A stretch of 64,000 bases of DNA from Terriglobia bacterium (lineage in GTDB: Bacteria > Acidobacteriota > Terriglobia > Bryobacterales > UBA6623): positions 1 through 64,000 of the forward strand of contig VXMF01000055.1 in NCBI GenBank assembly GCA_009841225.1. Reading direction: 5' to 3'. Position 1 is the stretch's first letter; each line of letters begins with the position of its first letter. Below are positions 27,457 through 62,677 of this stretch, in pieces. Under the pieces are notes generated by a model, which was not told the DNA's origin, ran no database searches, and was given only the letters and a program-made list of their open reading frames with translations. Both the position numbers and the translations under genes were made by a program.

Positions 27457-27731
27457 TGGTGCGGGTGCCAGCGAATATCCGATCGTTAAGGCGCAATAGC
27501 ACTCTATGACTCGTGAAGCCCCTTACTAAGCATTCAAGAGCGTTCTGATAAGGGCCCGCAATAGGGGCGGTGTTGTAGTAATGTAGGTTCGAGTTGACGA
27601 TGGCTTTGGCCGCCTGCCGGATCGCGTTCCGATTTGCGTACTAGCTGGCCGCCAGAACCCTCAGGAACCACATCGTTGCTTTGCGCATTGGCCTGCCTTC
27701 GCTTGACGGCGGGTGCCCACAGGAGAATGAC

Positions 27732-28946
27732 ATGCTCTCAACCCGCCTAATTCTGTCCGCCAGCCTAGTGATCGCAGTGTTTGCCGCATGCGGCGGAACG
27801 GATCAGTCCGCCGAAACTGGCGGCGACGGCCAGGCTGTCCGATCGCTGACTGCGGAGGAGTACTACGACAAGATCCACGGTGCTTGGCTTGGCCAGGCGG
27901 TCGCCGGTGCGCTGGGAATGAGCGTGGAGGGCATGCACCACAGCGACCTCAAGCCCTTCCTCACCGACTTGGGGCAGTGGCCGCTCACCGATTACATCAA
28001 GGCCTTGCATCCCCGGAGAGATCCGCAACGCAAGCAATGGTATACGGCGGACAACTGGGGCCCAACCGGCTTCGGGCCAGACGACGACTCCCTGTACCAG
28101 ATCGCGAACCTCCTGCTGCTCGAGGAGAAGGGTCCTGACATCACAAGCCAAGATATCGCCGACAAGTGGCTAGCTTCGTTCTCTGTGTTCGAGGCTCAGA
28201 ACTGCGGAAGGGCGGTCAGGGTCGCCGAAAAGCTCCTGAAGGAAGGCGTCAAGCCTCCCGAGTCCGGCAAGCACGAACTCGGCGAGTTCATGGGCGGCCA
28301 GATGAAGGGCGAGTTCTGGGGCTTCATGCTGCCCGGCAATCCCGAGGCGGCGGCCGAGTACGGGCGCATCGATGCCGAAGTCTCGTTCCATACCGACGGC
28401 GTCTACGGCGAGATGTTCATGGCGGCCCTCACCGCCGAGGCATTCTTTGAATCGGATCCGACGAAACTGCTCGAGGCCGGTCTTGCGACCATCCCCGAGG
28501 ACTGCGACTACGCCCGTTGCATCCGGGACGTGATGACTTGGCACGGGCAGTGGCCCGACGACTGGGAAAAGACCCACGAGCAGATCGACGCCAAGTGGGC
28601 GCCGGAGGGAAGCGAGAAGCAGCGCCGGGTGTTCCCGAACAACGCTGTCAACGCCCTAGCGCTGCTATACGGCGAGGGTGACTTCGACAAGACGATCTCG
28701 ATCGCTGTCATGGCTGGCTGGGACACGGACACGAACGCGGGCGACGTCGGGCCGGTCATGGGGGTCATTCTGGGGCCCGGAGCGATCGCCGAGAAGTGGA
28801 CGGCGCCCATCGCGAACATCTTTCGCTCTGATGTCAAGGGCGCGGAGGAGTGGAAGATCGATGAACTGGCGCGGCGGACGGCCGATATGGGCATGCGCAT
28901 GACCGAGGCAAAGTCCTCCGGACTTGTTGAGATTGTGAGCGAGTAG
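27732..28946 (+). CDS. ADP-ribosylglycohydrolase family lipoprotein
   Basis: Predicted lipoprotein of 404 residues. The start at 27732 follows AGGAG (27721-27725) and gives a lipoprotein signal with lipobox VFAAC; the longer frame from 27681 has no signal. The ADP-ribosylglycohydrolase fold is shown by KIHGAWLGQAVAGALGMSVE near the N-terminus, GPDDDSLYQI (first metal-site acidic cluster) and AGWDTDTNAGDVGPVMG (second, DTD motif). Classical members remove ADP-ribose from arginine or bind ADP-ribosyl groups in the cytoplasm. An exported version more likely acts on another N- or O-glycosidic nucleoside or sugar, which is inference. The next gene is a sulfatase in the same direction. Confidence 0.88.
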   Translation: MLSTRLILSASLVIAVFAACGGTDQSAETGGDGQAVRSLTAEEYYDKIHGAWLGQAVAGALGMSVEGMHHSDLKPFLTDLGQWPLTDYIKALHPRRDPQRKQWYTADNWGPTGFGPDDDSLYQIANLLLLEEKGPDITSQDIADKWLASFSVFEAQNCGRAVRVAEKLLKEGVKPPESGKHELGEFMGGQMKGEFWGFMLPGNPEAAAEYGRIDAEVSFHTDGVYGEMFMAALTAEAFFESDPTKLLEAGLATIPEDCDYARCIRDVMTWHGQWPDDWEKTHEQIDAKWAPEGSEKQRRVFPNNAVNALALLYGEGDFDKTISIAVMAGWDTDTNAGDVGPVMGVILGPGAIAEKWTAPIANIFRSDVKGAEEWKIDELARRTADMGMRMTEAKSSGLVEIVSE

Positions 28947-29022: not shown

Positions 29023-30504
29023 ATGGCTTGCGCAACTCGGCCCGGCCTAGGAACCAACGTGAACTCCAACTCCGGCACCGGCACACTTCGGCGGCGGGAC
29101 CTCTTCGCGCTGGGAGCGGCCACAGCACTTGCCGGCTGTCGGCAGGACGCTGCGCCTCGTCCGAATATCCTGCTTGCGATCTCCGACGACCAGTCCTTTG
29201 CTCACACTGGTGCTTCCGGCGATCCTGTCGTCCGCACGCCTGTGTTTGACCGAATCTCCTCCGAGGGAGTCCGGTTTGAACACGCTTTCTGCAATGCGCC
29301 GTCATGTACCCCGTCCCGGGGAGCGATCCTGACGGGACAAGAGTGCTACCGCCTCGAAGAGGGCGTCAACCTGTGGAGTTCCCTGCCCGCCAAGTTCGCC
29401 ACCTACCCAGACTTGCTCGAAGCGGTGGGCTATCACATTGGCTATACGCGCAAGGGGTGGGGCCCTGGAAGCATCGAGGCCGGGGGCCGCTCTCGCAATC
29501 CGGCAGGTCCAAGGTACGAGGACTTCCAGTCCTTCTACGAGGCCAATCCGTCCGGATCTCCGTTCTGCTTCTGGTTTGGCAGCACCGACCCGCATCGCGC
29601 CTACGAGAAGGGTTCGGGCGTAGCCAGCGGCCTGCGCCCGGAGGAAGTGCCGGTCCCTCCATTTCTCCCTGACGACCCCGAGGTTCGCAGCGACATCCTG
29701 GACTACTACTTCGAAATCGAACGCTTCGACCGCGAACTCGGCGAAATCCTGTCGTTCTTGGAAGAGCGAGGTCAACTCGCGAATACCATCATCATCGTCA
29801 CCAGTGACAACGGCATGCCGTTTCCGCGCGCCAAGGCGGACCTCTACGACTACGGGGCGCGGGTTCCGCTAGCCGTCCATTGGCCAGAAAGTGTCCCAGG
29901 CGGCCGCGTGGTCACCGACTTCGTCAGCTTGGTCGACATGGCCCCGACCATCCTCGAGTCCGCCGGAATCCAGGTTCCAAGCGATATGACAGGCCGCAGC
30001 CTGCTGACGCTGCTGAAGTCCGGCGAAGACGGCCGCGTCGACTCCACTCGCGATCACGCGATCTCGGTCCTCGAGCGCCACACGCCGTGGCGCGAAGGCA
30101 GGGTGGGATATCCAAAGCGCGCGATCCGCACGGATCAATTCCTGTACATCCGGAACTACGAGACCGACCGCTGGCCAGGGGGCGATCCTCCGATCTTGGG
30201 AGAGGTCGATCCGTCGCCCACCAAGGACTTGATGCGCGCTCGCAAGGACGAACCGGGGTTCGAGCGCTACTACGAAGCGGCGTTCGCCAAGCGCCCGAGC
30301 GAGGAATTGTACGACGTCGAGCGCGATCCCGGGCAGATGAACAATATCGCAGCCGACGAGGCGTACGCTGACATCAAGAGCGACTTGGCCGCGAGGCTTG
30401 ACCAGCACCTTCTCGCAACGGCTGATCCGAGGGCCCTCGGGCACCCCCCTACTTGGGAGTCGGATCCGCACCACGGCAGACTCACGGTGGAACAGCGCCG
30501 CTGA
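29023..30504 (+). CDS. Tat-type sulfatase, heparan-N-sulfatase-like
   Basis: Formylglycine sulfatase of 493 residues from ATG 29023. A GTG at 29059 could be the true start, since the twin-arginine signal TLRRRDLFALGAA with a possible lipid Cys (ALAGC) begins only at residue ~21. The metal site is LLAISDDQSFAHTG and the signature CTPSRGAILTGQ is at Cys95. It lacks the usual GKWH motif and has TRKGWGPGS instead, a pattern seen in sulfamidase-like members. VTSDNGMPFPRAK follows. It is only 76 bases after the ADP-ribosylglycohydrolase gene, so joint transcription is possible. Confidence 0.9.
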   Translation: MACATRPGLGTNVNSNSGTGTLRRRDLFALGAATALAGCRQDAAPRPNILLAISDDQSFAHTGASGDPVVRTPVFDRISSEGVRFEHAFCNAPSCTPSRGAILTGQECYRLEEGVNLWSSLPAKFATYPDLLEAVGYHIGYTRKGWGPGSIEAGGRSRNPAGPRYEDFQSFYEANPSGSPFCFWFGSTDPHRAYEKGSGVASGLRPEEVPVPPFLPDDPEVRSDILDYYFEIERFDRELGEILSFLEERGQLANTIIIVTSDNGMPFPRAKADLYDYGARVPLAVHWPESVPGGRVVTDFVSLVDMAPTILESAGIQVPSDMTGRSLLTLLKSGEDGRVDSTRDHAISVLERHTPWREGRVGYPKRAIRTDQFLYIRNYETDRWPGGDPPILGEVDPSPTKDLMRARKDEPGFERYYEAAFAKRPSEELYDVERDPGQMNNIAADEAYADIKSDLAARLDQHLLATADPRALGHPPTWESDPHHGRLTVEQRR

Positions 30505-56264: not shown

Positions 56265-57554
56265 ATGCATTGCCTGAAGCCTCCTCTCCATCCGGCCGGG
56301 CTCTCTAGGAGGGACTTGCTGCGGGTCGCGGCTGTCTCGGCGGCACCCGTGCTAGGCCCCCAGGGCACGCTTGCTGCCGCTCGGGAGAAGGCCAAGCCCC
56401 TCGACTTGCGTGTCACGGACCTGAAGTCGTGGATTGTCAACCACTCAACAAGCAAGAACTACGTCTTTTGCAAGATCTACACCAACCAGGGCATCGTCGG
56501 TGTCGGCGAGGGATCGGTCACGTCCAAGGCGACCACCATGAAGGCGGCGATCGACGAGCACCGGCGATACCTAGTCGGCCTAGACCCGACGGACATCGAA
56601 ATGCACTGGCAGGCGATGTACCGCTGGCCGAGATGGCGGGGCGGCCCCATCCTCAATTCCGCGATCAGCGCGGTCGAGATTGCGCTCTGGGACATTCTCG
56701 GCCAGGCCGTCGGCCAGCCGATCTACAAGCTGATCGGGGGCAAGGCCCGGACCCGTGTCCAGATGTACGTGCACCCGGGCGGCGGCCCGACGCCCGAAGC
56801 CTACGCCGAACGATGGGTCGCGGCCCGCGAGGCTGGCTGGACCGCCGGAAAGGGCAGCTTTGTCACAACTCACGACGACGTGATCGAGCCGGTGCGTTCC
56901 GTCAGGGAAGGCATCGCCAACCTAAGGGCCGTGCGCGAGGCGGTCGGCGATGCCTTCGCGATCTGCATCGACGTGCACGGCAAGGCAACGCCGACCATGG
57001 CGAGTTCGTTTTGCAGGCAGGCCGAGCCGCTGGACCCTTACTTCGTGGAGGAGGCGACCCAGATCGAGGATTTGGAGGAGCTGGCGCGGCTGCGCTCGAT
57101 GACAACCATACCGCTCGCCACGGGGGAGAGGCTGTTTACCAAGTACGGCTTCTCCCAAATTTGCCACAGGCACCTTGTCGACTACATCCAGCCGGACGTG
57201 GTGCATTGCGGCGGGATTCTCGAGCTTAAGAAGATCGCCGCGATCGCCGAGGCGAACCGCATCGAGCTATGCCCGCACAATCCGCAGAGCGAGATATCGA
57301 CGCTGGCCTCGCTGCACGTGGACTTCTCGACGCCGAACTTCGCGATCCAAGAGATCTCGTCGGGGAAGAGGGCTCCGTTCTGGGACGACTTCTTCCTCGG
57401 GGGCGGACCCCGCTACGAGAACGGTTTCGCGCTGCCGCCGGACAGTCCGGGCCTGGGCGTAACGTTCGACGAGAAGGTCGGCGAGCGCCGACCGTACGTC
57501 CCGGTGACTCGCCAGCAGCTGCGATTCCCGGACGGCGGAGTCGCGGACCACTGA
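56265..57554 (+). CDS. Tat-exported enolase-superfamily dehydratase (mandelate racemase/muconate type)
   Basis: Enolase-superfamily enzyme of 429 residues, likely a sugar-acid dehydratase of the galactonate/mandelate-racemase branch. The N-terminus LSRRDLLRVAAVSAAP is a twin-arginine signal. The three metal ligands appear in ICIDVHGKAT, YFVEEATQIE and LATGERLFTKYG. A C-terminal His is in ELCPHNPQSEI. The capping domain is residues ~45-165 (ISAVEIALWDILGQAVGQPI). Its 3' end faces a convergent pair of paralogues 17 bases away. Substrates in this family are acid sugars; the exact one is not readable from sequence. Confidence 0.9.
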   Translation: MHCLKPPLHPAGLSRRDLLRVAAVSAAPVLGPQGTLAAAREKAKPLDLRVTDLKSWIVNHSTSKNYVFCKIYTNQGIVGVGEGSVTSKATTMKAAIDEHRRYLVGLDPTDIEMHWQAMYRWPRWRGGPILNSAISAVEIALWDILGQAVGQPIYKLIGGKARTRVQMYVHPGGGPTPEAYAERWVAAREAGWTAGKGSFVTTHDDVIEPVRSVREGIANLRAVREAVGDAFAICIDVHGKATPTMASSFCRQAEPLDPYFVEEATQIEDLEELARLRSMTTIPLATGERLFTKYGFSQICHRHLVDYIQPDVVHCGGILELKKIAAIAEANRIELCPHNPQSEISTLASLHVDFSTPNFAIQEISSGKRAPFWDDFFLGGGPRYENGFALPPDSPGLGVTFDEKVGERRPYVPVTRQQLRFPDGGVADH

Positions 57555-57570
57555 GCGCAATGGTCGCCGT

Positions 57571-58881
57571 TCACCAAGCGGCGACGCTTCCATCCTCGTG
57601 CCAGACGCGGCTCATGGGCTTGGTGCCCTTGAACGGATGCCTCGCCAGTGCCCGCTCGTCGACCTCGAATCCCAGGCCGGGCTTGTCTGGCAGGGGGAAA
57701 TACCCGTCCACCATTCGCATTGCCGGGAAGCCCAACCAGTCCTGCCACAGCAGCTCCTTGAACGTTGGCTCCACACCGGAGCAGATCTCTTGGACCATGA
57801 AGTTGGGCATCGCCGCGTCCACGTGTAGAGTTGCAATGCCCCCGATGGGTCCCTCGCAGGCATGCGGGGCCATGTAGCATCCCGACGCCTCGGCCATCGC
57901 GCCCACCTTCCAGAGCGCAGTGATTCCTCCCACATGGTTGATGTCGCACTGGAGAATGTCGACAGTGCCGTCCTCCAGCAGCTGCTGGGTGGAGTAGTGC
58001 GCCACGAGGCGCTCGCCTGTGGCGATCGGGACCGTGGTTCTACGCGCGATCCGAGCCATCGCCTTGTAGTTCTCCGGGGGGCACGGCTCCTCGATGAACA
58101 TCAGGTGGAGCGGCTCGACCTCCCTGCAGATGATCGACGCTACGGTCGGGCTGGTCTTGGCGTGGAAGTCGATGCCAATGTCGATGCCGTCCCCGAGTCC
58201 TTCACGGAGCATCTGGATTCGCTGGACCGCGTCGTTGATCCGCTGGTTGGTCTCGATCCACTCGTAGTATCCGGAGATCCCACTCTTGAATGCCGTGATC
58301 CCGAGATCCTCCGCGGACTCGCGCAGCGCGGCGAGCTGCTCGGGCGTGTTCGCACGGACATGGTAGTAGCCGCGGACGCCGCGGGGATCGACGGGCCCTC
58401 CCAGCAGGCGGTACACCGGCTGGCCGAGCACTTTCCCGCGGATGTCCCACAGTGCCTGGTCGATGCCGGCAATCGCCGAGCCGAGGATGGGCCCAGCGCG
58501 GTAGAACGCATGGATGTACATGCTCTGCCAGATGTGCTCGACGCGCATGGGGTCCTGGCCGATGTAGAACTCCTTGAGGTCGTCGATGGTCTGCAGGACG
58601 GCGCCAGCCTTGCCTTCTAAAGTGGCCTCTCCCCAACCCACGACGCCTTGGTCTGTCTCCAGCTTGACGAAGACGTACGGCCGGTCGGAGTCGTCCTCCC
58701 ACGTAACACCAAACGTCTTAAAGCCGGTGACGCGAATCGGACCGGGCGCTGCCGCGAGGGCCGCGGCGGCAACGGGAGCGCACCCGCACCCCGGGAGCGC
58801 CGCCGCATGTCGGGCCGCTCCAGCGACCGCGGACGAAGCGCCCGCCATCACGGCTCCTCCGAAGAACTGGCGTCGGTTCAT
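57571..58881 (-). CDS. Tat-exported enolase-superfamily dehydratase
   Basis: Second enolase-superfamily protein, 436 residues, with a Tat-like start (MNRRQFFGGAVMAGASSAV). Ligand motifs are intact: IGIDFHAKTS, LMFIEEPCPPEN and IATGERLVAHY, with the late His in YMAPHACEGPIGG. A barrel lysine lies in ITAFKSGISGYYEW. It resembles galactonate dehydratase-type enzymes more than the copy at 56265 does. It overlaps the upstream gene (58878-60032) by ATGA, so the pair is translationally coupled. Confidence 0.9.
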   Translation of the reverse strand: MNRRQFFGGAVMAGASSAVAGAARHAAALPGCGCAPVAAAALAAAPGPIRVTGFKTFGVTWEDDSDRPYVFVKLETDQGVVGWGEATLEGKAGAVLQTIDDLKEFYIGQDPMRVEHIWQSMYIHAFYRAGPILGSAIAGIDQALWDIRGKVLGQPVYRLLGGPVDPRGVRGYYHVRANTPEQLAALRESAEDLGITAFKSGISGYYEWIETNQRINDAVQRIQMLREGLGDGIDIGIDFHAKTSPTVASIICREVEPLHLMFIEEPCPPENYKAMARIARRTTVPIATGERLVAHYSTQQLLEDGTVDILQCDINHVGGITALWKVGAMAEASGCYMAPHACEGPIGGIATLHVDAAMPNFMVQEICSGVEPTFKELLWQDWLGFPAMRMVDGYFPLPDKPGLGFEVDERALARHPFKGTKPMSRVWHEDGSVAAW

Positions 58882-60032
58882 GCGGCGTACTCCTGCAATG
58901 CGGCCTCGTCAATCTCGAGCCCAAGTCCCGGGCCTGTCGGCAGCTCGAAAAATCCGTTGACGACCTGCGGCACGGAGTCGCCAGCAATCGCAGTGTGCAT
59001 CCTCCGCTCCGCTGCGTCCGTCGAAAAGGCCACTTCCTGAACCACGAAGTTGGGGATCGACGCTGCGACCTGCAGCGCTGCAGCAGCGCCGATGGGTCCG
59101 CCCCGGTGGAACGGCGCCACCGCCGTGTAATAGGCCTCCGCCAGCGAAGCCAACTGGCGCACGCCGCTGATTCCATGAAGCCCGATGTCCGGCCTGAGCA
59201 CGTCGATGACCTGCATGCGCAGCAGATCCTGGAATCGACCGCTGGACGTGAGAAACCTGCCCCATCCAACTGGCGTGACGGATTCGTGCGAGATCTTCTC
59301 CAGCGCGGAGTCGCTGATCGGGCTGGTCGGCTCATCCATCCACATCAGATGGAATGTCTCAAGGCGGGCGGCCAGTCCGGCCGCCTCGGCCGCAGTGGTG
59401 CGCCCGGCACAGTCGAGAACGAGGTCGGTCGCGCCAGCCTGGCGCAGCCGCCGGAGCATCGCTTCGGTGTTAGCAAAGAACTCCCTTCCACGGGTGGGTG
59501 TCCCCTGAGGAAGCAGCGCGGGCACCGAGAACGCCCGGAAGCCGGAATTCCGGGCAGCAGAGAGTTGCTGGCTCAGTTCCGCTTCGCTGCTCCCTCGCAG
59601 AGAGGCCATGGCCCGCGCCTTGTCGCGGGTCCGCCCCGCAAGCAGGTCATACACCGGGGCATCCGCAATCTTCCCCCGCACGTCCAGGAGAGCGATGTCG
59701 ACTGCACCGCGGATTGCCGGTGCGGCTGCAGACAGCGAGACCCGGACGGCCATGCTTGCCATGGCATCCTTGCCGACCAACGCGTTGGCGTGCCGCAGCG
59801 CCTCGGCGACTGACGAGGCGGGATCCGCACCAGCGCTAGTCTCACCGTAGCCGGTCACTCCTGCACTGGTTCGCAAGGCGATAACCAGCCGCGGGACAGC
59901 CTCCGGACTCGAGCGGATCGCCCAGGCATCCAGACCGCTGATGGCGATCTCAGGCGTCGGGCCTGTGGCCGCCGCAGTGCCCGCCGCCAGCGACGCCAAT
60001 CCGAACCGCTTCTTCGACCGACCAGACGACAT
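58878..60032 (-). CDS. Degenerate enolase-superfamily protein (probable pseudoenzyme)
   Basis: Third enolase-superfamily member, 384 residues, with the capping domain (AVDIALLDVRGKIADAPVYD) and barrel but altered active-site positions. Where its siblings have IDFHAKTS it has LDCAGRTT, where they have EEP/EEA it has MDEPTSP, and where they have ATGER it has GWGRF, so the third metal-binding Glu is gone. The region holding the barrel lysine in 57571 (AFKSG) reads AFSVP here. The N-terminus (RFGLASLAAGTAAA) is a weak signal. The stop overlaps the start of the active-looking paralogue by ATGA, suggesting a structural or regulatory partner. Confidence 0.85.
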   Translation of the reverse strand: MSSGRSKKRFGLASLAAGTAAATGPTPEIAISGLDAWAIRSSPEAVPRLVIALRTSAGVTGYGETSAGADPASSVAEALRHANALVGKDAMASMAVRVSLSAAAPAIRGAVDIALLDVRGKIADAPVYDLLAGRTRDKARAMASLRGSSEAELSQQLSAARNSGFRAFSVPALLPQGTPTRGREFFANTEAMLRRLRQAGATDLVLDCAGRTTAAEAAGLAARLETFHLMWMDEPTSPISDSALEKISHESVTPVGWGRFLTSSGRFQDLLRMQVIDVLRPDIGLHGISGVRQLASLAEAYYTAVAPFHRGGPIGAAAALQVAASIPNFVVQEVAFSTDAAERRMHTAIAGDSVPQVVNGFFELPTGPGLGLEIDEAALQEYAA

Positions 60033-60065: not shown

Positions 60066-60959
60066 TCAGGCCTTGCGCGATGCTCGTCGCCTTGGGATAG
60101 GGGAATTTAGAGTCAGTTCGGAGTCAGTGGCAGTCCACAGCGAGGCTGGGCGCCCGCTGCGAGTCATCGGTCGGCTAGGTATGCGTTGGAACACCTCGTC
60201 AGGCCAAGGAGAAGCCATCTCCGCGCTCGCAACTACCCCGTCGGGAGGGTCCCAACTCTCCTGAGCACGCTCGAAGTAAACCTCCCGAGCGCTCAGATCA
60301 GGCGCTGCTTGGTCCGCCGCCGCTGGCACGGATCGGCCAACTTTCTGGAACGAGCGGTTCTCGCGCACCTTGCGCTGAAAGTTTCCAGGGTCGAGCTTGG
60401 TGTTCCAAATGGTCTCGTAGACCTTCCGGAGTTCGCTGATGGTGAATTCCGAGGTACAGAACCTGGCTGCGAGCGCGGTGTACTCAAGCTTCGCCCGGAC
60501 GCGCTCCAAGGCGTCGGAGACGATCACCCCGTGATCGAACGCCAGCTCGATCTTGCCATCCTCGATCTCTGACACGGGCACGAGTTCCGCCTCCGCGGCA
60601 TCGCTACCGCCCATTGGCGAGGGAAGTTCGGCACATGCTCCCCAATAAGCGACCGTGACCACCCGCATGCGCGGGTCCCGTCCTGGTGAGCCGTAGCTGC
60701 GCAGCTGTTCCAAGTAGACGGAGTCTTCAGCGACGCCTGTCTCCTCGGCGAGTTCGCGGGCTGCCGCGGCATCCAAGCCCTCGTCAGGTTGGACGAAGCC
60801 TCCGGGCAAGGCCCAAGCTCCCGCGAACGGCTCGATTCCCCGCTGGATCAGCAGGACATGGAGCTCGTCTCGTCGAATCGCGAACAGCGCCACGTCGACG
60901 GTGACTGCGACTGGAGCGTAGTCGCCGGGGTTGTAGCCGAGATTGCCGTCGGAGCTCAT
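60066..60959 (-). CDS. NrtR-like Nudix-winged helix protein
   Basis: Protein of 297 residues. Residues ~12-140 form a Nudix domain with a complete Nudix box from GGFVQPDEGLDA to RELAEETGV. Residues ~165-225 match the winged helix of NrtR repressors (CTSEFTISELRKVYETIWNT, DPGNFQRKVRENRSFQKVG). NrtR proteins sense ADP-ribose-type ligands and repress NAD-metabolism genes; many have a broken Nudix box, unlike this one. The last ~70 residues are low-complexity and unassigned. The start at 60959 (ATG) was chosen over GTG 60989 because the family begins close to the Nudix strand. It is divergent from the ARPP-1 gene across the palindromes at 61055-61125. Confidence 0.85.
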   Translation of the reverse strand: MSSDGNLGYNPGDYAPVAVTVDVALFAIRRDELHVLLIQRGIEPFAGAWALPGGFVQPDEGLDAAAARELAEETGVAEDSVYLEQLRSYGSPGRDPRMRVVTVAYWGACAELPSPMGGSDAAEAELVPVSEIEDGKIELAFDHGVIVSDALERVRAKLEYTALAARFCTSEFTISELRKVYETIWNTKLDPGNFQRKVRENRSFQKVGRSVPAAADQAAPDLSAREVYFERAQESWDPPDGVVASAEMASPWPDEVFQRIPSRPMTRSGRPASLWTATDSELTLNSPIPRRRASRKA

Positions 60960-61054
60960 CGGACACCTGCCACTTGAATATTGACACACCCGAACTTCCG
61001 CGTACGACCGCGAGAGGACGCCCGCAGACCAGCCGCGGAAATTTTTCTTCGTTA

Positions 61055-61077
61055 ATTATTGACATCATAACAATAAT
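61055..61077. promoter_or_regulatory. 23-bp inverted repeat, first operator candidate
   Basis: Arms ATTATTG (61055-61061) and CAATAAT (61071-61077) are perfect, with a 9-base spacer. The half-site TTATTG recurs in the larger palindrome downstream, suggesting one protein binds both. The site covers the -35 hexamer of the rightward promoter. Confidence 0.6.
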
Positions 61078-61087
61078 CCTGCATACT
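61059..61087 (+). promoter_or_regulatory. Predicted promoter of the ARPP-1 gene
   Basis: A perfect -35 TTGACA (61059-61064) is followed after 17 bases by CATACT (61082-61087), 4 of 6 to the -10 consensus. Both hexamers are overlapped by the inverted repeats, as expected for a repressed promoter. Confidence 0.5.
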
Positions 61088-61125
61088 TATTGTCAGATTG
61101 ATAATATCAGTCTGACAATAAGTAT
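61083..61125. promoter_or_regulatory. 43-bp nested palindrome, main NrtR operator candidate
   Basis: Perfect 15-base arms run from 61083-61097 (ATACTTATTGTCAGA) and 61111-61125 (TCTGACAATAAGTAT). The 13-base centre contains its own palindrome TGATA-A-TATCA (61099-61109), leaving one mismatched pair in the whole element. It lies between the -10 element and the ribosome-binding site of the ARPP-1 gene and ahead of the divergent NrtR-like gene. Confidence 0.7.
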
Positions 61126-61151
61126 TGGAGCGCATGCACAGGAGGCAAGCC

Positions 61152-62111
61152 ATGACCAACCACTCACATCTTCCGAACCTCGAGACCGCAGCCATCGGCA
61201 GTCCGATCACCCGGCTGGGAGTGTCGTTCTTCCCCATCTACTTGATGGATGCCGACCTTCCGGAAATCTCGACCGGGCAGGACTCGGGCCTCGTCATCAA
61301 GGAGCTTGAAAACCCGACAGTTCCGACCCTGCTGGCGCACAACCCCACTCGCACGCCGATCTTGGTGGTCGAAGGCCAGCACTTCCTGGGCGGCAAGCAG
61401 AACCGAACGATCAATGGAACCGTACTCGTTCCCGCCATGACCAAGCTGGAAATCCCGGTCTCGTGTCTTGAGGAGGGACGCTGGGGACGCGCGGAGGCGT
61501 ATCGGCAAGCCGAGACCTTCGCTCCTCGCACGGTGCGCCTGCGGAAAGAGGAGTTTGTCAACCAGTCCATGCGCCACAGCGGGTCGCGGCAGGGCGATCA
61601 GGGCGCCGTCTGGAACGAGGTCGCCGACGTGCTGCAGGCCGCGGAAGCTCACTCGGAGACCTCGGCGGCGTCTGTCATCGACGATGTGTACCGCCGAGAC
61701 AGCCGCCGGTGTGACGCCGTCGCGGAGCTCGTGGGCCGAGGGCCGCTTCCGCGCCAGAGCGGGATCGCCGTCACTCACGGGCGCTGGGTAGCAGCGATCG
61801 AGCTGTTCGGCTCGCCGGAACTGCTCAAGGCGCACTGGGAGGCCTTGATCCGGTCGTACCTGCTGGAAAGCGTTAGGGCACTGGGGCGCCCGTCTCCGAC
61901 GAGAGTGCTCCGGATTCTCAGGCGCTTCGGGTCGCTCAAGTCACAAGACGCACGGGGGGTTGGGCTCGGAATGGATCAGCGAGTGGAGGACCGGAGGATC
62001 GTGGGGCAGGCGTTGACCCTCGACGGGGTGATCGTGCATGGCAGCGCCTTTGCTCGCACTTCGAATGACTTGGAGCATCCAACTGGGACTGCGGCCTATC
62101 ACCAGGCATGA
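61152..62111 (+). CDS. ARPP-1/DUF6569 family protein
   Basis: Cytoplasmic protein of 319 residues. It resembles the ARPP-1 (DUF6569) family, named in comparative genomics for association with ADP-ribosylglycohydrolase and NAD/ADP-ribose operons; its activity is unknown. Recognisable blocks are GSPITRLGVSFFPIYLM, IKELENPTVPTLLAHNPTRT, LVVEGQHFLGGKQNRTINGT and LEIPVSCLEEGRWG. Later WVAAIELFGSPELLKAHWEA and a C-terminal VIVHGSAFAR are visible. The start at 61152 has GGAGG six bases upstream; a TTG at 61125 is inside the palindrome and unlikely. Divergence from an NrtR-like regulator is strong context for a link to ADP-ribose. Confidence 0.8.
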   Translation: MTNHSHLPNLETAAIGSPITRLGVSFFPIYLMDADLPEISTGQDSGLVIKELENPTVPTLLAHNPTRTPILVVEGQHFLGGKQNRTINGTVLVPAMTKLEIPVSCLEEGRWGRAEAYRQAETFAPRTVRLRKEEFVNQSMRHSGSRQGDQGAVWNEVADVLQAAEAHSETSAASVIDDVYRRDSRRCDAVAELVGRGPLPRQSGIAVTHGRWVAAIELFGSPELLKAHWEALIRSYLLESVRALGRPSPTRVLRILRRFGSLKSQDARGVGLGMDQRVEDRRIVGQALTLDGVIVHGSAFARTSNDLEHPTGTAAYHQA

Positions 62112-62281: not shown

Positions 62282-62677
62282 TCACGGCTGACGCTTCTCC
62301 TCCGTGATCTGGATCAAGTTGCCGCACGTATCGTCGAACACTGCGGCAATCACACTCCCGAGGTCCGTTGGCGGCTGCACGAATCGAACGCCGCTTGCCA
62401 CGAGACGATCGTACTCGGCTCCGATATCGTTGGCCGCGAAGGAGGTACTGGGGATCCCGTCTTCCACAAGCGCCTTCCGGTATGGACGAACTGCGGGGTG
62501 GGCATCGGGCTCCAGCAGCAACTCTGTCCCGTCCGGAGCTTCCTCGGATACGACTGTGATCCAAGCGTGTTCTCCCAGAGGGATGTTGTGCTTTACACGG
62601 AAACCAAGGGTCTCTGTGTAGAACCGAAGCGCCTTCTGTTGATCGTCTACGAAGACACTGGCTAGGTAGATCCTCAT
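62282..62677 (-). CDS. VOC-family (glyoxalase-like) protein
   Basis: Protein of 131 residues with the vicinal-oxygen-chelate fold: VFVDDQQKALRFYTETLGF starts the first beta-alpha-beta unit, GTELLLEPDAHP ends it, and IGAEYDRLVASGVRF with VFDDTCGNLIQITE forms the second. Such small proteins often confer resistance or act as dioxygenase- or glyoxalase-like enzymes; the activity is unassigned. Its ATG overlaps the stop of a truncated ArsR-like frame (ATGA, 62674-62677), an arrangement typical of intact ArsR-VOC operons. Confidence 0.9.
   Translation of the reverse strand: MRIYLASVFVDDQQKALRFYTETLGFRVKHNIPLGEHAWITVVSEEAPDGTELLLEPDAHPAVRPYRKALVEDGIPSTSFAANDIGAEYDRLVASGVRFVQPPTDLGSVIAAVFDDTCGNLIQITEEKRQP

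Follow-up and report, generated by a model that had tools for sequence, protein, structure and literature searches.

What does an NrtR-type regulator control when the gene encoded head-to-head with it specifies an ARPP-1 protein? A sequence-only reading of the window (the whole 64-kb stretch of DNA analysed here) had proposed such a divergent pair, with ARPP-1 as the regulated target and a shared control region dense with palindromes. The pair was borne out by Pfam matches above cut-off, with NUDIX (73 bits, cut-off 21) and NrtR_WHD (40.5 bits, cut-off 27) recognised in the regulator, and PF20208 ARPP-1 (206 bits, cut-off 27) in the protein encoded at 61152-62111, which places the latter in DUF6569 as had been claimed and agrees with its RefSeq name, "DUF6569". 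The mechanical open reading frame of the regulator (60066-60989, minus strand) begins at GTG 60989, and the likely start is ATG 60959, the same ATG used by orthologues in an alignment (Table 1). The regulator is the only NrtR_WHD (PF21906) protein in the whole genome, and the solved structures 3GZ5/3GZ6 (SoNrtR) and 5BS6 (AraR) align with it over about 190 residues. Against the NCBIfam equivalog NF050029 (ADPR-responsive repressor) it scored 131 bits, below the curated cut-off of 400. ARPP-1 appears, from the gene arrangement, to be monocistronic and to have no operon partner, because the next gene downstream (62282-62677, glyoxalase-family) is convergent.

Table 1. Features of the NrtR/ARPP-1 locus and their positions in the window
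Feature	Position	Strand	Basis and remarks
NrtR-type regulator (Nudix + winged helix)	60066-60959	-	Pfam matches; start ATG 60959 preferred
NrtR winged-helix DNA-binding domain	60330-60455	-	PF21906 match, E 8.8e-10
Nudix box GFVQPDEGLDAAAARELAEETGV	60732-60800	-	Sequence; canonical GX5EX7REUXEEXGU
Operator O1 TTATTGACATCATAACAATAA	61056-61076		Pattern match; covers -35 hexamer
Sigma-70-type ARPP-1 promoter	61059-61087	+	Consensus scan, 10/12
43-bp near-perfect palindrome ATACTTATTGTCAGATTGATA-a-TATCAGTCTGACAATAAGTAT	61083-61125		Inverted-repeat search; contains O2 and O3
Operator O2 TTATTGTCAGATTGATAATAT	61087-61107		Pattern match; overlaps end of -10 hexamer
Operator O3 ATAATATCAGTCTGACAATAA	61101-61121		Pattern match; overlaps O2
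Shine-Dalgarno-like AGGAGG before ARPP-1 ATG 61152	61140-61145	+	Sequence
ARPP-1 / DUF6569 protein, 319 aa	61152-62111	+	PF20208 match

Side-by-side comparison of orthologous regions yielded a 21-bp operator, TTATTGTCA-N3-TGACAATAA. The consensus occurs three times in the window, always between the two genes (0.04 sites expected by chance; 0/100 shuffles gave three). O1 matches a looser pattern with zero mismatches and is unique in the genome. The 43-bp palindrome (two inverted arms of 21 nt that are 95% complementary and flank a single central nucleotide), which together with the three operators substantiates the palindrome-dense control region, is kept in same-genus relatives. The predicted ARPP-1 promoter consists of TTGACA (61059-61064), a 17-nt spacer and CATACT (61082-61087), such that the -35 element falls within O1 and the -10 element touches O2, and relatives show the same layout.

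Operators were restricted to this locus. Scanning the 5.74-Mb genome with up to two mismatches returned the sites described above and one two-mismatch match on contig C13, which corresponds to the control rate; beyond chance, the genome holds no operator elsewhere, so that operator position did not mark the regulator as one of NAD biosynthesis. The only nadA of the genome lies on contig C26 and has no operator there, in agreement, for the NAD gene searched, with the earlier observation that no NAD biosynthesis gene is nearby. None of the nine ADP-ribosylglycohydrolase (ARG) homologues in the genome has an operator either. Most same-genus genomes keep the pair with its operators. G001-G006, G008 and G010 carry sites with 0-1 mismatch at the ARPP-1 locus only, and two-mismatch sites elsewhere in same-genus genomes are few and comparable to a control pattern. 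G007 has one 0-1 mismatch site, on a contig different from that of its ARPP-1, and G009 has none, its ARPP-1 being a fragment with an in-frame stop. At one locus (L016, on G006:C113) ARPP-1 and the operators are intact with no adjacent NrtR; the sequence diverges just upstream, with recombination, insertion or a misjoined contig as options.

The check proposed by the sequence-only reading, operator conservation at orthologous loci, was run across phyla and passed. An ARPP-1 alignment, used to scan 84,980 species genomes, gave at least 80 loci (a nearest-first, biased sample), and a divergent NrtR is present in 35 of the 80 listed; by record title these belong to Acidobacteriota, Alpha- and Gammaproteobacteria, Rhodothermales, Dadabacteria, Acidimicrobiia and others. 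Operators were scored with a fixed consensus at a cut-off of five mismatches in 35 listed loci with NrtR and 42 without. They were found in 30/35 of the former versus 1/42 of the latter (Fisher 4e-15) and, outside the window's own family, in 22/27 versus 1/42 (Fisher 3e-12), values which treat loci as independent although related loci are not. At the sole operator-positive locus without NrtR (L050), a regulator would not be visible because the contig begins ~230 bases upstream of ARPP-1. Five listed NrtR loci have no recognisable operator at this cut-off. An iterated weight matrix, trained partly on the same sites, recovered them again. For loss of operator and NrtR, 3.5 of five phylogenetically independent pairs agreed and none disagreed (p 0.125, too few pairs). 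NrtR and ARPP-1 distance matrices correlated in a mirror-tree comparison (r = 0.88; 0/2000 permutations as high). Operators overlap the hexamers of the best ARPP-1-strand promoter in 25/35 listed NrtR loci, an overlap that is partly built in, as the TTGACA half-site is itself similar to a -35 hexamer. The operator pairs of NrtR loci fall into two spacing groups, with starts about 22-26 or 30-36 bases apart. At L072 (4995-5984), ARPP-1 lies in two frames, NrtR is present and no operator is recognisable, possibly a decaying pair.

With the exception of L077, the ARPP-1 proteins that have an NrtR form one supported clade of 42 rows, some members of which have no adjacent NrtR. Phyla are interleaved within it, which suggests transfer, although bins and titles can mislead. 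By this comparison NrtR and ARPP-1 are the conserved two-gene unit, because flanking genes other than these two and the ARG and VWA partners are common mainly to close relatives. Those partners differ between lineages. ARPP-1 is fused to an ARG (ADP_ribosyl_GH) in L043 and L066 and adjoins one in L048, L054, L057, L068 and L070. In several Acidimicrobiia, ARPP-1 is fused to a VWA protein or lies downstream of one. A VWA-domain protein is fused to the ARPP-1 N-terminus, or encoded beside it, at a number of loci (L061, L064, L067, L075, L092; L059, L060, L062, L065; L042, L050, L069); the parts of the 2022 ARPP paper considered here do not name this partner (PMC9503650), and no relative of it was detectable in the window's genome. 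The pair in the window has no ARG in its neighbourhood; the nearest, 32 kb away, is an ARG-family open reading frame with a lipoprotein-like signal and no operator (27681-28946, plus strand), which adjoins a sulfatase-like one (29023-30504). Three consecutive enolase-superfamily (MR_MLE) genes (56265-60032) lie directly beside the regulator, and four close relatives have the same genes adjoining the pair. Defence genes were absent from the flanking genes examined.

Contacts of SoNrtR with ADP-ribose, which include R41, R98, Tyr10, Phe15 and the alpha-phosphate contacts Asn43 and Lys76 (PMC4666351), were mapped through a phmmer alignment in which a 3-residue tag offset fits every named residue. 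R41 and R98 correspond to R40 and R97 here, each present in 36/36 NrtRs paired with ARPP-1; Tyr10 corresponds to Y9 (31/36) and Phe15 to Y/F14 (34/36), and neither N43 nor K76 is conserved among the 36. K76 occupies one of two Nudix glutamate positions lost in SoNrtR, and both are glutamate in 36/36 of the paired regulators, in which the REUXEE glutamates E69, E72 and E73 are conserved throughout. MsNrtR has RQUXEK at this motif and its hydrolase activity was undetectable (PMC6800001). The motif is intact in 2FML, which carries the annotation MutT/nudix family protein. Judged by these residues, the regulator has a pocket of the nucleotide-binding type and an intact catalytic motif, since R40 and R97 are kept and the Nudix glutamates are present in 36/36; the regulator may thus be a hydrolase. 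The conserved contact residues, some of them common to the arabinose-sensing branch, point to ADP-ribose as a candidate ligand.

Comparison of 53 ARPP-1 relatives showed 24 invariant residues, among them Q83, R85, C105, E107, R110 and W111. The absolutely conserved cysteine and glutamine that characterise the family are present as C105 and Q83 in the 53 sequences, and the invariant set would fit an enzyme. An AlphaFold2 model (pLDDT 91.5, pTM 0.90) has beta-rich N- and C-terminal parts around helices; the published description of the ARPP-1 fold is a duplicated beta-meander with an inserted barrel. Foldseek comparison of the model gave no convincing match in the PDB (best E 0.14) and none below 0.001 among viral models, and a sequence search of solved structures returned nothing. 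DnaN clamps and pilus chaperones were considered as fold relatives and set aside as weak (VIA-align best Z 3.6). Of the genomes sampled from this phylum, about one in five encodes an ARPP-1 protein. Phage records gave no match, plasmids gave two weak Pimelobacter matches, and viral contigs gave one partial relative; the plasmid relatives bear the annotation 'DUF6569 family protein'. The literature on ARPP-1 with ARG, or on DUF6569, yielded nothing beyond PMC9503650 and no reported activity. The earlier statement that the family is tied to ADP-ribose metabolism holds in that the link has been published; as described in the parts of that study considered here, it is a link to ARG systems and a prediction (PMC9503650).

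Taken together, these observations favour a model in which the locus is a two-gene, self-contained module: NrtR is predicted to repress ARPP-1 until an ADP-ribose-type ligand relieves repression, a reading that we hold to be reasonably probable. An NrtR dimer would bind two 21-bp operators, here three overlapping ones. Since both the -35 and the -10 hexamer of the ARPP-1 promoter lie under operators, which are also upstream of nrtR, NrtR would repress ARPP-1 and probably itself. As the ligand rises it would fill the Nudix pocket, the repressor would leave the DNA and ARPP-1 would be made. ARPP-1 may then handle the ligand itself or a ribosyl product related to it, acting alone at this locus and together with ARG in Alphaproteobacteria. 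With its catalytic Nudix glutamates preserved, the regulator may in addition hydrolyse its own ligand and so reset the switch. The proposal that ARPP-1 is the regulated target gains support from operator position on its promoter and from restriction to the locus. ARPP-1 is probably the only thing that NrtR controls, because the operator occurs only here genome-wide, operators track NrtR and the distances of the two proteins correlate. A bolder form combines a catalytically active, ligand-destroying repressor, which senses an ADP-ribose derivative, releases ARPP-1 and hydrolyses the ligand to reset, with an ARPP-1 that acts on ribosyl groups and represents a new class of enzyme with a fold of its own; we regard this form as doubtful.

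Other explanations differ in which part of this model they replace. If the operators belonged to another regulator, the neighbouring NrtR would be incidental, as the NrtR-less L016 locus might indicate; however, the operators go with NrtR from phylum to phylum, and the genome has none away from this locus, leaving this idea very improbable. The ligand could instead be a sugar or nucleotide other than ADP-ribose, sensed by a protein of the NrtR branch in the manner of AraR, with ARPP-1 acting on another sugar. The arabinose-pocket residues R34, R86 and H131 of BtAraR are conserved here as R40, R94 and H143, the ARPP contexts described in the parts of PMC9503650 considered here include a polysaccharide deacetylase, and the neighbouring genes are of the enolase superfamily. 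Yet in BtAraR the place of the nucleotide is taken by Gly89 and Phe36 (PMC4666351), whereas the regulators considered here have an invariant R97 and no aromatic residue at position 42, and ARPP-1 is elsewhere fused or adjacent to ARG; we consider this explanation unlikely.

A further possibility leaves the regulation as in the preferred reading and changes its purpose: the pair would be what remains of an ARG-centred anti-phage or anti-toxin (conflict) system after loss of its ARG core, with ARPP-1 retained for defence. ARG systems in which ARPP accompanies a Nudix-HTH regulator have been described (PMC9503650, as far as considered here), and a single ARPP-1 clade mixes loci with and without ARG or VWA, with phyla interleaved. 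PADLOC gave no match for ARPP-1, the flanking genes examined include no defence gene, and retention of the pair and its operators in most same-genus genomes looks more like a stable housekeeping trait. Such an origin is conceivable, though we do not favour it. Under the repressor-target model, a one-target repressor with defined operators would offer a direct route to ARPP-1 biochemistry, as the ligand that frees NrtR from its operators would likely be the ARPP-1 substrate or a relative of it. The intact Nudix motif also makes this NrtR a test case for the idea of these regulators as dead enzymes.

Like the Shewanella and Mycobacterium NrtRs (PMC4666351, PMC6800001), the regulator described here combines a Nudix domain with a winged helix, keeps most ADP-ribose contact residues and has, at its own promoter, a palindromic operator some 21-23 bp long. 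Unlike them, it controls no recognisable NAD gene, its operator sequence differs, and its Nudix glutamates are intact, in contrast to the two K residues of SoNrtR and the RQUXEK of MsNrtR. With BtAraR it shares the domain layout and the R34/R86/H131 pocket, but it keeps the ADP-ribose-contacting arginine (R97) in place of a filled nucleotide site (PMC4666351). The closest precedent is a 2022 study of NAD-ADP-ribose systems, in which, as far as considered here, ARG systems carry Nudix-HTH or WYL regulators and ARPP, predicted to act on the ribose of ADP-ribose, and two-gene ARPP contexts comprise HIRAN, WYL and polysaccharide deacetylase, not NrtR alone (PMC9503650). The locus resembles those systems in joining a Nudix-HTH regulator to ARPP, and related Alphaproteobacterial loci carry ARG, fused or adjacent; it differs in having neither an ARG nor a rhodanese-phosphatase gene, and in an operator of a kind not described in the parts of that study considered here. 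The ARG-less NrtR/ARPP-1 pair is thus a variant of a known arrangement, most likely derived, as a two-gene offshoot, from the ARG-centred ADP-ribose systems of the 2022 study (PMC9503650).
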